A DNA stretch of 64,000 nucleotides, from the NCBI GenBank assembly GCA_001313365.1, contig BBFS01000011.1, forward strand, positions 7,700 through 71,699, in the 5' to 3' direction. Positions within the stretch are counted from its first letter, which is position 1; each line of letters starts with the position of its first letter. Below the pieces are notes generated by a model. The model was not told where the DNA came from, made no database searches, and worked only from the letters and a program-made list of their open reading frames with translations. Below, piece by piece: positions 39,349 to 44,761 of the stretch. Origin of the DNA: Paenarthrobacter nitroguajacolicus JCM 14115. GTDB taxonomy: Bacteria; Actinomycetota; Actinomycetes; Actinomycetales; Micrococcaceae. Made by a program: the position numbers and the translations under genes.

Positions 39349-39903
39349 CTAATCTGCGGCAGGTTTTCCCAAATCAATCCAGTACCGGCGGAAAAGCCGC
39401 CCGCCTTCACCCGTACGCACATCTTCGAGCAGCCCATCGCAACGCTCGATAGTCCTGATTGACGCCGAATTGTCGTCATCACAGGTCAGCAGAACACGAT
39501 CCGGCAGAGCCTCACCCGACTCGCCCTGCACAACCAACCGGGACAGCAGTTCCCTCAGCGCCCAGGTTGCCGCCCCCCTCCTGCGGTCCGAGGTCGAATC
39601 CCGTAGCCGATGTGCCCGCCCGAGTTCAGGAGAGCCTGGGTCAAGTGGTGCCGGAACGCAATCGCCCCCCCACGTAGCGTGGACCTTCCGTGATCCAGAG
39701 GTAGGTGCACGGAACAATGCCGTCCTTCTCCGTCGCGCTTTCAGCGTCCAGCAACTTGCCAACCCAATCAGCGAAGCCCTCCGGCTGGTGACGTCTTCCG
39801 CCATGAAGACGGCGGCGCCATCCTGATGGACGCCGGCCCACTCACGGTGGGACTCGAGGAAGGACCTGTGGAAGGCGGCGTTGGGCGGTACGAGTTCAAA
39901 CAT
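39349..39903 (-). CDS. GNAT family N-acetyltransferase
   Basis: About 185 residues from ATG 39901-39903: MFELVPPNAAFHRSFLESHREWAG, YLWITEGPRYVGAIAFRHHL, then GYGIRPSDRRRGAATWALRELL, which carries the acetyl-CoA binding R-x-x-G-x-A pyrophosphate loop, and CDDDNSASIRTIERCDGLLEDV. Breaks near 39666 and 39580. It is divergent from the microcin C-like operon, with 146 bases between them. In classical systems a GNAT domain (MccE) inactivates the processed toxin, so an immunity role is possible, but similar stand-alone GNAT proteins are common. Confidence 0.75.
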   Translation of the reverse strand: MFELVPPNAAFHRSFLESHREWAGVHQDGAAVFMAEDVTSRRASLIGLASCWTLKARRRRTALFRAPTSGSRKVHATWGGDCVPAPLDPGSPELGRAHRLRDSTSDRRRGAATWALRELLSRLVVQGESGEALPDRVLLTCDDDNSASIRTIERCDGLLEDVRTGEGGRLFRRYWIDLGKPAAD

Positions 39904-39970: not shown

Positions 39971-40007
39971 GACAAACTTGTCATATCTATGACATGTGTC
40001 GTAGATT
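39971..40007 (+). promoter_or_regulatory. Promoter and nested palindromes upstream of the microcin-like peptide gene
   Basis: TTGTCA (39978-39983) and TAGATT (40002-40007) are 18 bases apart and fit a sigma-70-type promoter, with the start expected near 40014. It overlaps three short palindromes: GACAA-AC-TTGTC (39971-39982), TCATA-TC-TATGA (39981-39992) and GACA-TG-TGTC (39991-40000). This dense symmetry is not seen at most other promoters here and suggests control by a repressor. Confidence 0.55.
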
Positions 40008-40049: not shown

Positions 40050-40109
40050 GTGCTTAAGCTCAAGCGACTGGCCAAGCGCCGTTCCAAGCTGAACTTCGTG
40101 TTCAACTAA
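40050..40109 (+). CDS. mccA: Microcin C-like precursor peptide, 19 residues ending in Asn
   Basis: GTG 40050 follows AAAGGAG by 8 bases and encodes MLKLKRLAKRRSKLNFVFN, then TAA. Seven of 19 residues are Lys or Arg and the last is Asn. It is directly followed by a hairpin and an MccB-type gene. In Escherichia coli the MccA peptide (MRTGNAN) also ends in Asn, the residue MccB couples to AMP. The frame contains no run longer than 3, so it is not touched by the homopolymer problem. Expected product: a peptidyl adenylate taken into target cells through the basic peptide, releasing an inhibitor of aspartyl-tRNA synthetase. That is inference from the family. Confidence 0.78.
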   Translation: MLKLKRLAKRRSKLNFVFN

Positions 40110-40122
40110 ACCAAGAATAAAT

Positions 40123-40156
40123 AGTGGGGGGGGCCACGCACCGCGTGGTCCCCACT
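40123..40156 (+). promoter_or_regulatory. Hairpin between peptide gene and mccB
   Basis: AGTGGGG plus CCACGC (40123-40139, with a G run of 8 that is probably 4) pairs with GCGTGG plus CCCCACT (40143-40156), leaving an ACC loop and one bulged T. No T tract follows. A hairpin in this position is known from the Escherichia coli mcc operon, where partial termination yields far more peptide mRNA than enzyme mRNA. Confidence 0.65.
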
Positions 40157-40174
40157 CATCATTGGAGGCAAGAA

Positions 40175-41220
40175 TTGGCAGCCGTAACCTACTCCCTCAA
40201 GCAGTCGCTACCGGTCATCACCACGGAAACGGCCGTGCAGATCGGATTGGCACCGCCCAACGCAATCGAAATCGAGGACGCTCCAGACGGGCTGGCTGAA
40301 CTACTCAGCTTCGCTTCACAGCCACGGACACTCGACGATCTGGGAGCAAGGCCGAACTCCTGCTGGGTGAAGGCTCCGGAGAGATCGTCGAGGAACTTAT
40401 CGACGCCGAGATTCTGGTGCCGTACAGGTTCGACCTCTCCGGCCGGTACAGCCGTCATGACCTGTACTTTGAACTTGCGCACAGCACGGGCCCGGAGCCA
40501 GCGATCTGCTGCGCAGCCGAAAGGTCACGCTGATCGGTGTGGGCGGGATCGGGACGAACGTAGCCATGCAGCTCGCAACAGCCGGCGTGGGTTCCATTGT
40601 CCTGGTCGACGGGGACACTGTAGAAGAAAGCAACCTGACCCGGCAGTACCTCTTCACGGCGCAAGATATTGGTACCCCCCCAAAATCCAGGCCGCTGCAC
40701 GGAACCTTCACCTCAGGGCCCCCCCGACATCAACACGGTGGAAGTCGCCTCCATGATCTCCGGGGGGGTGGAAGATCTCCTGCCTGTTTTTCAGGACTCG
40801 GACTTCGTTGTGGTCTCCGCCGACACGCCCCCCCAGGAAGTGCTCGAGTGGTCTAACCAGGCGTCCATCGCCACCGGCACGCCTTTCACCTGCGCGGGGT
40901 ATCAAGATACGCGTGGAGTGGTAGGCCCTGTTGTACGGCCAGGAGTCACCCCTTGCCTGCAATGCGCAGCAACAGATAACGACGGCAGGACCCAATCACA
41001 GGCCTCGCTCTCCACAACAAACCTCAATAGCTCGTACCAGGCTCCTAGCTTTGGGCCGCTTAACTCCATCGTGGCTTCCATTACCGCCATGGAAGTGTTC
41101 CGCTACCTGCTTACCGGATCCACCAACCTTGACGGCAGGAGGCTGGTGTTTGACTCCCTGGAGTTGGCGTCGGAGTTCGAGGGTTTCGCCAGGAATGGCC
41201 ACTGTGCTGCCTGCTCCTGA
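40175..41220 (+). CDS. mccB: MccB-type ThiF family peptide adenylyltransferase
   Basis: Reconstructed 350-residue protein, the length of E. coli MccB. TTG 40175 has GGAGG six bases upstream. Residues 1-110 form an N-terminal region fitting the MccB peptide clamp (TLDDLGARAELLLGEG, AEILVPYRF). The E1-like domain follows: VTLIGVGGIGTNVAMQLATAG, LVDGDTVEESNLTRQYLF with the ATP-binding Asp, Asn and Arg, FVVVSADTP, and FTCAGYQDTRGVVGP. CLQC and CAAC supply four zinc cysteines. NLTRQ-LF-DIG and the APSFGPLNS segment resemble MccB more than ThiF or MoeB. Breaks at 40349 and 40490 are lost G bases; 40675, 40722, 40763 and 40831 are long runs. Confidence 0.85.
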
Positions 41221-41687
41221 CTGCAATAAGGGCACGGCGCTCGTTGCCCTAACGGGGGGGCCTACGTGGTCGCCTCGATCGCGGCAACGGTGGCCAACAG
41301 AAATTTCTGGCCCATCGCGTCAAACAATATGTTCAATGCCAAGTTCAGGGACCGCGTCTCAAGATTCGCAGTTGAATTCCACATGCCTGATGGAACAACG
41401 GTTGCCTGCGGCCCGGCGAACTGCCTTCCAACCCAGTTCTTCCGGGCCGGAGCAGTGTTCGCCAGCATCTTCATGGGTGAGGATGAGCAACCGAAGAACG
41501 TCCTCTGCCAGAGAATCGTCCGGAGGCTTCGCAGCAACGCGTGGCGACCGTTTGACGAGGTTCGCGCCCCCCCGCTCACCTGCCCGACCCTCCCTTGAGG
41601 ATGGACATCCTGGTGGCAACTACTGTTCGGGGAATGCCTGAGGAAAAGGAAATTGTGTACAGCTATGTTCCGACAACTTCGCAGTAA
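41195..41687 (+). CDS. Small membrane-anchored protein, SdpA-like partner of HTTM
   Basis: About 163 residues from ATG 41195, which lies inside the last 26 bases of mccB. One N-terminal helix (TALVALTGAYVVASIAATV) is followed by NRNFWPIASNNMFNAKFRD and a soluble domain with RFAVEFHMPDGTTVACGP, FASIFMGEDE and the recovered tail MDILVATTVRGMPEEKEIVYSYVPTTSQ. The W-P-x-x-x-x-N-M-F pattern after a single helix is typical of small proteins encoded beside HTTM membrane proteins, as with SdpA and SdpB. Breaks at 41254 and 41570. Its end overlaps the next gene. Function unknown. Confidence 0.6.
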
Positions 41688-42507
41688 ACCAGTCCAACTC
41701 CGTCGGGTACGCAATGCGGCAGTGTGGGCTGTTGCCGCCCTGGCGCTGACGCTCCGCCCCCGGCCCGGCTACAGCCCGGGACTATCGAGCTGCAGTTTCT
41801 GCACAGGAGTCAGCGGCCGATCGCAGGCTGATGACGGGATCGCCTGGAAGAGCCGACGCACGGCAGCCGGACTGCTGATGGCCGCCGCGGCGGCCAGCGA
41901 GGTTTGTGGAGACCCCCCCGGGGCAAAGCCCTCTTCTTGGATTCGGCGGGCCGCGCTGGGATTGTTTTTGGGAACACGGGCTTTGGATGCCCGCTCCCTA
42001 CCGGGCCGCTGGCCGTATGACACATTCATTGAAGCGGTACTCGTCATCAGTCAGATGTCCAAGCCGGGCAGTGGCCAGTCCCCCCCGAACCTGCCGCTTT
42101 CGGTCTCACGGGTTGCGCTATACCTGCCCTACACGCAGGCCGGTTTGTCCAAACTCCTCCACGGCTATGACGCTTGGGTCAGGCGCGGCGATGCCAACCA
42201 TATTTATCACTCGCACCTGTTGGCCTCGGATACTCACCCGTTTGCCCAAGAGCGATACAGAGTGCCGGTTCGTGCCCTGACCCGCACAATTCCCTTTCTT
42301 GAATTAGTCGCACTCCCCCCCCTTGCGCTCATTCTTCCCGGCAAGTGGCGGATTGTAGTTCCCTGCTGCACCACCATCTTTCACATGGTCATTGCCCGCA
42401 CGTGGAATATCAGCTTTTGGCAGGCTCCCGTAATGCAATGGCTTCTCACTTCAGTGGAAAAGCAGCCCGACCTTGTCACCATTCTCCAATCATCCCGAGG
42501 TAAATGA
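41665..42507 (+). CDS. HTTM/SdpB-like membrane protein
   Basis: About 280 residues from ATG 41665 (an in-frame TTG at 41653 is possible). Several hydrophobic helices: AVWAVAALALTL, AAGLLMAAAAASEV, FLELVALPLALILPGKWRIVVPCC. In the middle are VALYLPYTQAGLSKLLHGYDAW and NHIYHSHLLASDTHPFAQ, and near the end TTIFHMVIARTWNISFWQAPVMQWLL. The layout (Y-x-x-A-x-x-x-K-L near the centre and a late H-x-x-x-A helix) fits HTTM proteins, the family of vitamin K-dependent carboxylases and SdpB. A four-base gap would separate its stop from the MFS start. In the Sdp toxin system such a protein is needed for toxin maturation; a modification role here is inference. Confidence 0.65.
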   Translation: MFRQLRSKPVQLRRVRNAAVWAVAALALTLRPRPGYSPGLSSCSFCTGVSGRSQADDGIAWKSRRTAAGLLMAAAAASEVCGDPPGAKPSSWIRRAALGLFLGTRALDARSLPGRWPYDTFIEAVLVISQMSKPGSGQSPPNLPLSVSRVALYLPYTQAGLSKLLHGYDAWVRRGDANHIYHSHLLASDTHPFAQERYRVPVRALTRTIPFLELVALPPLALILPGKWRIVVPCCTTIFHMVIARTWNISFWQAPVMQWLLTSVEKQPDLVTILQSSRGK

Positions 42508-42508
42508 C

Positions 42509-43734
42509 GTGTCATTAGCAAAGCCATGGCAGCGACGTTTGCACCTCACGGGCATGTGGGTGAATTCGTTGGGTGGCGGTGCTACAACATCGCCCTGCCG
42601 CTCATAGTTCTGCAGACAAGCGGCAGCCTTGCCCAGATGTCCATTGTTGCCGTGGCATCACAACTTCCGAAGGCTTTCCCCGGAGTGCTCATCGGAGGAC
42701 TCGCAGATCGGATGTCCCCCCCGCGCCATGACCCACATCGGCTATTGGGGTCAAGCACTGGTTGTTGCTGCAATGGCGCTGCTGATAGGCCCTTGGCACA
42801 CTCCCTTTTGGGTCCTCGTACTAGGCGCCTTCCTACGCGGCAGCCTCGACATGTTCGCCCGGACAGCCACCTTCGTGGCCATCCCGAAGATGTACGGTGA
42901 CGGCACTGCGAAATTCAACGCAGCAGTTTCCACCGCGTGGACCTCAGCTTCCATCGTGGGGCCGGCAATTGGTGGAGCCTTGAGCGCCGTCTGGGGTCCG
43001 TGGTGGTTGCTGGCCGTTGACGCAGTGTCGTTTACGGCTATTGCCTTGATCATGAATTTCCTGCCGTGGCCGGAGCGCCCCAGCAGCCTGCCGGACCGGC
43101 CAGGTTTCTACAAGGAACTGTCTGCCGGGTACCGGAGACTTACCCAAATCCATGGTTGGTGGCGTTTTGCCGGGACAGTTGTCCTCGTCGGCTTCCTGTC
43201 AGCCCCCACTGTCAACTCTGGCGATCTTCCAGACCTCCGTTGGCCTCAAGGGTTCCACCACGGAAGTAGGAATCGTGGGCGCAGCGGCCGCTGCGGGCCT
43301 CTTCTGCGGTTCGATTCTGTCAGGATTGTTCTCCGATTGGCGCCCAAACGTACTGATGCAACGCTCCTCATGGCTTATGGCAGCAGGAGCCTTGCTCTTC
43401 TTCATCCCGTCGTGGATTGCCGTGGCTAGTGCCTTTTCGTCGTCTGTACGGGCGGCATTGCATGGACGGTGGGACGCACATCCCTCATCCATCAACAGAT
43501 TCCCTCGTCTGACCTGGGCAAGACCATGACGGCAGTCCAGTTTCTTGAAACTGTATCCAGTCCCCTCAGCCTTGCAGTTGCCACGTTTCTTATGGGCGTC
43601 TCGTCATTCATGGCCTTTGGCTCCATCCTCCTGGCAGCCCTGCTTTCGGGGGGGTGCTTGCGATCAATTCAGACTCCATGCTGAAGCCAAGTGAAGTGAA
43701 AGGAGAGATCAAGCAGGCGGAACCTGTCCAGTAG
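42509..43734 (+). CDS. MFS exporter (MccC-like)
   Basis: About 405 residues, twelve helices, from GTG 42509 one base after the HTTM stop. Landmarks: MSLAKPWQRRLHLTGMWVNSLGGGATTIALPLIVLQTSGSLAQ, FPGVLIGGLADRMPRAMTHIG with the motif A loop, VLGAFLRGSLDMFARTATFVAIP, ASIVGPAIGGALSAVWGPWWLL and IHQQIPSSDLGKTMTAVQFLETV. It matches the drug-efflux-like MFS type that includes MccC, the exporter and partial immunity factor of microcin C. Breaks at 42598, 42716, 43207, 43441 and 43650. A CCTGTCC/GGACAGG hairpin overlaps the stop. Confidence 0.8.
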
Positions 43735-43767: not shown

Positions 43768-44673
43768 TCAGTTGCCCCCCCGGCGCAACTTCCGGCTTTG
43801 GACAACTGCATGCGTTTTGCGCAGCGCATCAATGGAAGCCTCATATGACTGCTGGGCGACGCCCACGAACAGGCAGTCAACGAGCATCATCTGCGCTATC
43901 CGGCTACCCATGGCCCCAGGCGGAATGGGGGGGTCTCCCGTGCTGCCGTGGTCAATACAATGTCCGCTGCCAGCCCCAGGGTGAGTCTGCATGGTTGGTG
44001 ATGGCGATGGTAACGGCTCCGGCCGCTTTGCCCGCTTTCAGGTAATCGACAGTGTCGTCGGTCGCGCCTGAGTGCGAGATGGCAACGGCGACACATTCGG
44101 CGTCGAGCAGTACCGCTGAGGTGAGGGCGGCATGCACTTCTGACCAGACGAAGGAGACCAGGCCAATCCTATGCAGCTTTTGCTGCAGGTCCTGACCCAC
44201 CAATCCTCCCGCTCCCACGCCGAAGATGTCGATCTTCCGGGAGCTGGCCACCACGTCAATGGCTCGAGCCAGCTGTTCGACATCCAGCACCTGGCAGTAT
44301 CGGCGATGGACATGGTTTCGTTGAATGCGATTTTGGAGACGATGTCTTGCAGCGAGTCGGCAGTGTTGATGTCCTCGTAGACCTCGGCCGGAACGCCATG
44401 GGCCACACTTTCACGGGCAGTTTCACGCGCAAGATCCAGGCGGAGATCCGAGTAGCCGCCGTAGCCCACCTTTTTGTAGAACCGGACCACCGAGGTGGTG
44501 GACGTCCCGCACTCCTCAGCCAAATCGCCGATGGACATGGTGGCAGCCCGCGATGGGTCCGACAGGACCAACTCAGCCACGGCACGCTCCGATGGGCGTA
44601 ACGCTGGCAGGACAGAGCGAATCCGCACCAAAACAGTGCGGGACAACTGTGCGTTAGCCGACGCTTCCAGCAT
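43768..44673 (-). CDS. RpiR/MurR family regulator
   Basis: About 295 residues. N-terminal HTH_6: VLPALRPSERAVAELVLSDPSRAATMSIGDLAEECGTSTTSVVRFYKKVGYGGYSDLRLDLA. C-terminal SIS domain: RKIDIFGVGAGGLVGQDLQQKLHRIG and CVAVAISHSGATDDTVDYLKAGKAAGAVTIAITN, a phosphosugar-binding layout. ATG 44671-44673 is preceded by GGAAATC. Frame breaks near 44290, 43976 and 43925. It is divergent from namZ and nagZ, so it very probably controls muropeptide use with a MurNAc-6-phosphate-type effector, as MurR does; the effector is inference. Confidence 0.86.
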
Positions 44674-44761
44674 GATTTCCTTCCGAAGGGTCAAACCGGA
44701 TCCAGGGTTTCACCCGAGCTTTGTCATTAAGTTACACAAGCATGGACGCGAAGGTAAGTCA

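Follow-up and report, generated by a model that had tools for sequence, protein, structure and literature searches.

Does a five-gene operon of Paenarthrobacter nitroguajacolicus JCM 14115, in which a frame for a 19-residue peptide precedes a gene for a ThiF-type enzyme, direct the synthesis of a microcin C (McC)-like antibiotic, and what do the two membrane proteins encoded between the enzyme and the exporter contribute? The operon lies within a 64,000-nucleotide stretch of contig BBFS01000011.1 (positions 7,700 to 71,699 of the forward strand), hereafter called the window. We consider the locus a probable microcin C-like operon. Its MccB-type enzyme is predicted to nucleotidylate the C-terminal Asn of the 19-mer, the membrane proteins A and B would likely mature the precursor or hand it over, and a major facilitator superfamily (MFS) protein would export a probable Trojan-horse antibiotic. 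The chemistry, the target and the role of the A/B pair are what we infer for this locus.

All five genes are encoded on the forward strand in the order peptide, mccB, A, B, MFS (Table 1). The peptide gene and mccB are separated by 65 bases, mccB overlaps gene A by 17 bases, A overlaps B by 23, and a single base lies between B and the MFS gene. These open reading frames (ORFs) lie where the initial annotation had placed them, and relatives have intact counterparts. In the window itself, the similarity of mccB, gene A and the MFS gene to those relatives is split into pieces across two or three frames; gene B is a single open frame whose product has additional prolines and, over an N-terminal stretch, differs from that of its relatives. 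The lengths of G/C runs are bimodal across the whole window (1-64000), with an excess at 7-8 bases, and the G runs number 73 of length 4, 39 of length 5, 10 of length 6, 86 of length 7 and 11 of length 8. This bimodality is likely a sequencing artefact, and the lengthened runs are the likely cause of the frame breaks in the operon. Many other genes in this record are probably frame-broken as well, through sequencing or assembly error.

Table 1. Positions in the window of the operon genes, their putative control elements and the flanking genes
Feature	Position	Strand	Remarks
Precursor peptide gene (mccA-like)	40050..40109	+	19 residues, GTG start, C-terminal Asn
mccB-like gene, ThiF-type nucleotidyltransferase	40175..41220	+	two CxxC motifs, TTG start; window copy frame-broken
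Gene A, small membrane protein	41204..41687	+	159-160 residues in relatives, with a single membrane helix near the N-terminus; of no known family; frame-broken in the window
Gene B, polytopic membrane protein	41665..42507	+	277-279 residues in relatives, distantly SdpB/HTTM-like
MFS exporter gene (mccC-like position)	42509..43734	+	407 residues in relatives; window copy frame-broken
Promoter-like pair TTGTCA / TAGATT	39978..40007	+	spacing 18, consensus match
Hairpin between peptide gene and mccB	40123..40156	+	14-bp stem, 3-base loop in relatives; G run lengthened in window
Divergent GNAT acetyltransferase gene	39358..39903	-	flanks operon; not operon-specific
Right-hand flank gene	43774..44742	-	adjoins GNAT gene in 5/14 operon-less loci

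The synteny on which this reading depends is conserved, with the same gene order in 10 related genomes and all four larger genes open in nine of them (L001-L005 and L035-L038). Six of the loci were obtained from a scan of genome contigs, namely a Paenarthrobacter metagenome-assembled genome (L001), Arthrobacter sp. M2012083 (L002), Y81 (L003), P. aurescens TC1 (L004), cf158 (L005) and UNC362MFTsu5.1 (L006); whole-genome searches added four carriers (L035-L038). The DNA of L002 is 93% identical to the window across the aligned stretch. In Arthrobacter sp. UNC362MFTsu5.1 (L006:8524-9876), mccB carries a frameshift near residue 234 and the remaining operon genes are open; owing to the shifted mccB, this locus was excluded from the MccB alignment, the first tree and the comparison of nonsynonymous with synonymous substitution (dN/dS). 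Computed over five strain pairs for each gene, with the four G-genome carriers set aside, dN/dS was 0.06-0.11 for mccB, 0.13-0.46 for A, 0.20-0.32 for B and 0.05-0.07 for the MFS gene. The operon genes are under purifying selection.

The short frame in front of the enzyme gene is the most uniform element of the locus. The peptide VLKLKRLAKRRSKLNFVFN, or the same peptide with an ATG start, is encoded in the window, L001-L005 and L036, and the variants elsewhere comprise A to T in L006 and L037, L to I in L035 and F to L in L038. Apart from the start codon, at most one residue is changed, and the C-terminus VFN with Asn as the last residue is retained in all 11 loci, as the annotation of an Asn-ending precursor had implied. 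Since the synonymous divergence (dS) of mccB is at least 1 in three of the five strain pairs, this near-invariance points to selection rather than to recent copying. An AGGAG-type site (AGGAG in the window) precedes the peptide start in each of the 11 loci, and TTGTCA together with a -10-like hexamer is likewise found in all of them. In 9 of the 11 loci (L004 and L036 being the others), a palindrome TTGTCA-N6-TGACA spans the putative -35 element (39978-39994 in the window) and is a possible operator.

Between the peptide gene and mccB lies a hairpin at the position of the E. coli mccA-mccB terminator, whose action is described as driven by the binding of ribosomes to mccA (PMC6495379). Its predicted stability is -30.5 to -31.7 kcal/mol, matched by none of 200 shuffles for each of four sequences. 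In an alignment of the 10 relatives (9 distinct rows; window copy excluded), all 126 cells pair, 12 of the 14 stem pairs are invariant and one pair is changed on both sides.

Compared with solved structures, the intact enzyme of L002 matches MccB best (2.4e-41), followed by ThiF (5.8e-20) and MoeB (4.8e-16). Both CxxC pairs are kept across 23 relatives, with positions 258, 261 and 341 invariant and position 344 nearly so. Within the best 120 of 703 related proteins, the nearest from outside the Arthrobacter group is about 50% identical, and the relatives of 37-42% identity include, among the matches listed, the methyltransferase fusions P0037, P0040, P0041, P0048 and P0049. In two maximum-likelihood trees, the branch that divides MccB from MoeB/ThiF has support of 100/99 (66 rows) and 100/100 (60 rows, six long-branch rows having been excluded), and the enzyme lies on its MccB side. 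A screen of viral contigs with the MccB alignment gave 28 pattern stretches and no true relative. Separately, a metagenomic MccB-type enzyme (P0034, 41% identical) carries a fused GNAT domain that weakly resembles E. coli MccE (E 5.9e-7), a fusion that would unite nucleotidyltransferase and immunity in one chain.

On this basis, we propose the following course of events. The hairpin would stop most transcripts after the peptide gene, leaving the peptide in excess, and MccB would activate its C-terminal Asn to form a P-N bonded peptidyl-nucleotide. A and B would then act at the membrane, either removing the basic N-terminal part or passing the compound to the MFS protein, which is predicted to export the operon product (the L002 protein matches MFS_1 at 3.3e-22). 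In a target cell, trimming of the compound would leave a modified Asp-nucleotide able to block aspartyl-tRNA synthetase, a target proposed because of membership in the McC family and not from data obtained here. Self-immunity would come from export and from core-genome enzymes. In Yersinia, the long-precursor compound is reportedly activated inside the producing cells by TldD/E. A more tentative proposal is that a membrane maturation module, consisting of the HTTM-like B and a new partner family A, may have been recruited into a microcin C-type operon, where it might trim or release the peptidyl-nucleotide at the membrane by SDP/linaridin-like machinery, as an in-operon counterpart of the TldD/E trimming borrowed by Yersinia. 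A and B are proposed to trim or hand over the 19-mer because SdpA and SdpB are needed for the processing of SdpC to SDP (PMC6818787) and because the HTTM protein of the corynaridin linaridin cluster, which lacks a leader protease gene, is assumed to join in maturation (PMC9927463). The mechanism of HTTM/SdpB-type proteins is called unclear in the latter source.

Several points weigh against the microcin C-like interpretation, and they concern the hairpin, the membrane pair and, further below, immunity and the enzyme. The product, target and activity of the operon are predictions. The stem of the hairpin shows almost no covariation, the observed value being equalled by 119 of 500 shuffles, and a T-run is absent after it; the case for the hairpin is therefore made by conservation and stability, not by covariation. 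No gene for A or B was seen near the distant actinobacterial mccB in any of nine loci fetched for the 14 class-sample relatives. Searches of both proteins against NCBIfam and Pfam, with E up to 10, gave no match except that of B to LMF1, which fell below the cut-off and occurred in one of two proteins (E 0.0055). B misses the SdpB model, and at E 0.001 neither the SdpA model PF17418 nor the SdpB model TIGR04033 finds a match in the carrier genome G002, the B. subtilis control being positive for both.

By hydropathy, protein A has one N-terminal membrane helix. The SdpA-like label that it had initially received has to be dropped: it has no detectable SdpA kinship, with a profile comparison of 0.3% and SdpA proteins ranking 5, 33 and 96 of 110. 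The HTTM/SdpB-like label of B is weakly supported. In profile comparison, B reaches 35% against SdpB and HTTM combined and 15.9% against SdpB, with 0.2% against HTTM alone; the controls gave 0.2% for B against MFS and 99.4% for SdpB against HTTM as the positive control. When single sequences were ranked against B (73 proteins, comprising 56 background membrane proteins and 17 SdpB/HTTM proteins), two of three SdpB proteins came first and second and the third came 43rd. Distant relatives were found for A in P0144 (39%) and for B in P0016 (40% over 54%), and the structure models had a mean predicted local distance difference test score (pLDDT) of 50.4 for A and 52.0 for B, values at which fold matches carry no meaning.

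These proteins could also be read differently, with a microcin C-like compound made as proposed and A and B conferring self-immunity, for instance as a membrane pair that blocks re-entry; we consider this unlikely. Such a role would suit the lack, among the five operon genes, of any homologue of the known immunity proteins MccE, MccF, MccG and MccH, the first two of which, together with MccD, had already been noted as missing from the operon. It would also suit the co-occurrence of A and B with mccB in 10 of 10 carriers and the faster evolution of B relative to mccB and the MFS gene. However, the McC immunity proteins described in print work in the cytoplasm, where the compound is their substrate or target (PMC9239234, PMC7157772), published work links SdpB- and HTTM-type proteins to maturation (PMC6818787, PMC9927463), and all 10 carriers encode elsewhere an S51 peptidase, a family able to give immunity. 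Since 10 of 14 control genomes also match, these peptidases say little about the operon. Immunity from core genes has been raised as a possibility for minimal mcc operons, and five of seven standalone MccG homologues are described as protective, with an Arthrobacter sp. FB24 protein among those tested (PMC9239234).

The divergent GNAT gene, which flanks the operon in all 11 loci (window included), was considered as the MccE of the cluster and rejected: it is present in 30 of 150 genus genomes (at least 66% identity, E 2.2e-69 or better), only 7 of which have the operon. It is not operon-specific, because the other 23 genomes lack the operon and because 5 of 14 operon-less loci have it directly beside the right-hand flank gene. 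It resembles E. coli MccE weakly: the L003 protein matches at 21% and E 1.7e-5, and the L002 protein reaches E 1.8 at best. It is possible that this GNAT protein is a recruited immunity factor.

A different product altogether would result if the ThiF-type enzyme performed other peptide chemistry, such as azole formation with a thiazole/oxazole-modified microcin (TOMM) partner, macrocyclisation or formation of a C-terminal thioester, and the product were not a peptidyl-nucleotide. The one NCBIfam cut-off that the enzyme passes is that of TIGR03882, 'TOMM precursor leader peptide-binding protein' (40.4 vs 36.9 bits), NCBI labels its relatives likewise, and other ThiF-like enzymes are reported to cyclise peptides (PMC12150305). 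Nevertheless, the peptide contains no Cys, no Thr and one Ser, no YcaO-like gene was seen among the neighbouring ORFs (it was not specifically searched for), and the C-terminal Asn present in 11 of 11 loci is described as the mark of an MccB substrate (PMC6495379), which makes this chemistry improbable. A sulfur-carrier activator of the MoeB/ThiF type, preceded by a short frame that encodes a regulatory leader peptide, is a highly improbable alternative: an approximately unbiased (AU) test does not reject a tree in which the Arthrobacter enzymes stand beside MoeB/ThiF (p 0.106), but the best trees separate them, a separate MoeB/ThiF-type gene is present in 6 of 6 carriers, and an enzyme found in only 7 of 150 genus genomes is not housekeeping. 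The MccB-type assignment stands in the tree topology, and the AU test leaves the MoeB/ThiF placement unrejected. A grouping with ThiF/MoeB and the lack of a conserved Asn-ending frame had been named beforehand as results that would overturn the microcin C-like reading; the best trees and the 11 loci gave the opposite. The reading holds with corrections, which concern the nucleotide, the labels of A and B, and the earlier description of actinobacterial mcc clusters.

Within the microcin C-like reading, the attached nucleotide may be either AMP or CMP. MccB enzymes are described as falling into two clades, the larger one acting on precursors of 7 residues and the minor one on precursors of 17-56 residues (PMC6495379), and the Nocardia vaccinii MccB, which carries a carboxymethyltransferase domain, joins cytidylate to a 21-residue precursor (PMC9239234). 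The 19-residue precursor lies within the 17-56 range and fits the long-precursor class; we therefore lean to CMP, which appears slightly favoured over AMP, cytidylate being at least as likely as adenylate. The grouping with the long-precursor clade has support of 92/90 in the first tree. In the second tree, the AU test rejects neither the methyltransferase-type MccB side (p 0.495) nor the classical side (p 0.122), and the five Arthrobacter rows belong to no larger well-supported set (sets up to half of all rows). The enzyme consists of the ThiF part alone, 345 residues, without the C-terminal carboxymethyltransferase domain of the characterised long-precursor members.

To describe the distribution of the operon, which is carried by some soil strains of Arthrobacter, samples of increasing taxonomic breadth were searched. 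An MccB of the Arthrobacter kind occurs in the 7 genus genomes mentioned above; the family sample gave a match in 2 of 100 genomes, the seed genome and one 39% relative, and the order sample, queried with P0031 (a 50% relative), gave a match in 2 of 396, both of them carriers. In the class sample, 15 of 394 genomes match at 1e-25, and all except the seed hold relatives of 32-41% identity. Protein B was found in 1 of 396 phylum genomes, namely the seed, and a search of about 5.8 billion proteins gave 16 matches to it, the first being the window's own protein and all named sources being Arthrobacter or Paenarthrobacter. In 5 of the 14 operon-less loci around the GNAT gene (L094-L097 and L100), this gene adjoins the right-hand flank gene, which by its sequence pattern encodes a putative RpiR-type regulator, with a gap of about 45-60 bases; in the other nine, this neighbour pair is not present. 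The side-by-side arrangement in the five loci identifies the operon as a discrete presence/absence block at that site. Scans of the window for tRNA genes and Rfam families gave no matches, nor did plasmid searches using pieces of the window.

If the proposal is correct, HTTM/SdpB-type proteins, which recur in peptide-toxin operons, would be tied to a pathway whose kind of substrate is chemically defined, which would open their activity to direct assay. Arthrobacter would also join the sources of antibiotics directed at aminoacyl-tRNA synthetases, with a compound whose peptide part is long, basic and nearly invariant. Actinobacterial mcc-like clusters have been described in Nocardia and Mycobacteroides (PMC9239234) and in Nocardiopsis and Thermobifida (PMC7157772). 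In searches of open-licence papers in PubMed Central (PMC), we found no mcc operon with an HTTM/SdpB-like gene or protein A and no Arthrobacter mcc operon.

The Nocardiopsis/Thermobifida mcc-like clusters, which use the HIT hydrolase MccH, share an actinobacterial MccB with the Arthrobacter operon (Nocardiopsis rows are 36-41% identical over 74-90% of the query, one being 34%). They differ in a HIT-domain gene after mccB, of which the Arthrobacter operon has none, and in the absence of A and B. Such a HIT-domain gene stands directly after an actinobacterial mccB in L044 (7869-8360), resembling the published MccH arrangement. The long-precursor cytidylate clusters of Yersinia, Bacillus amyloliquefaciens and Nocardia vaccinii have in common with the Arthrobacter operon an Asn-ending precursor of 17-56 residues (21 in N. 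vaccinii) and methyltransferase-fused relatives, with the build of the cytidylating MccB, that are 37-42% identical to the Arthrobacter enzyme. By contrast, the Arthrobacter operon lacks the carboxymethyltransferase domain and has A and B instead, with no mccS- or mccD-like gene seen. In a genome of the same family as the carriers (L093, reverse strand), an MccB-methyltransferase fusion is followed by a further methyltransferase gene and preceded by an MFS-like gene, and this locus looks like a cluster of the carboxymethyl-cytidylate type.

Outside the McC family, B. subtilis sdpABC also combines a small protein of one helix and a polytopic one with a peptide product, and B aligns collinearly with SdpB; unlike sdpABC, the Arthrobacter operon has an MccB and no SdpC-like precursor, and A and B depart from SdpA and TIGR04033 as described above. 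Linaridin HTTM clusters (crdG of corynaridin) are likewise clusters for ribosomally synthesized and post-translationally modified peptides with an HTTM-type membrane protein and without a leader protease gene (PMC9927463); their core chemistry is unrelated, and the similarity of B to HTTM alone is not significant. What looks like a classical mcc operon of three genes is present in a further actinobacterial locus (L043, reverse strand): a frame with a GAGGAGG site encodes the heptapeptide MLKLGGN, and the other two genes are MccB-like and of the MFS type. The E. coli mccABCDE/F operon for microcin C7 differs from the Arthrobacter operon in its 7-residue peptide, against 19 residues here, in its MccD, MccE and MccF, and in the lack of counterparts of A and B, which here separate mccB from the exporter gene; the two operons share a short Asn-ending peptide gene, a hairpin, a ThiF-type MccB and an MFS exporter, arranged in the same order.

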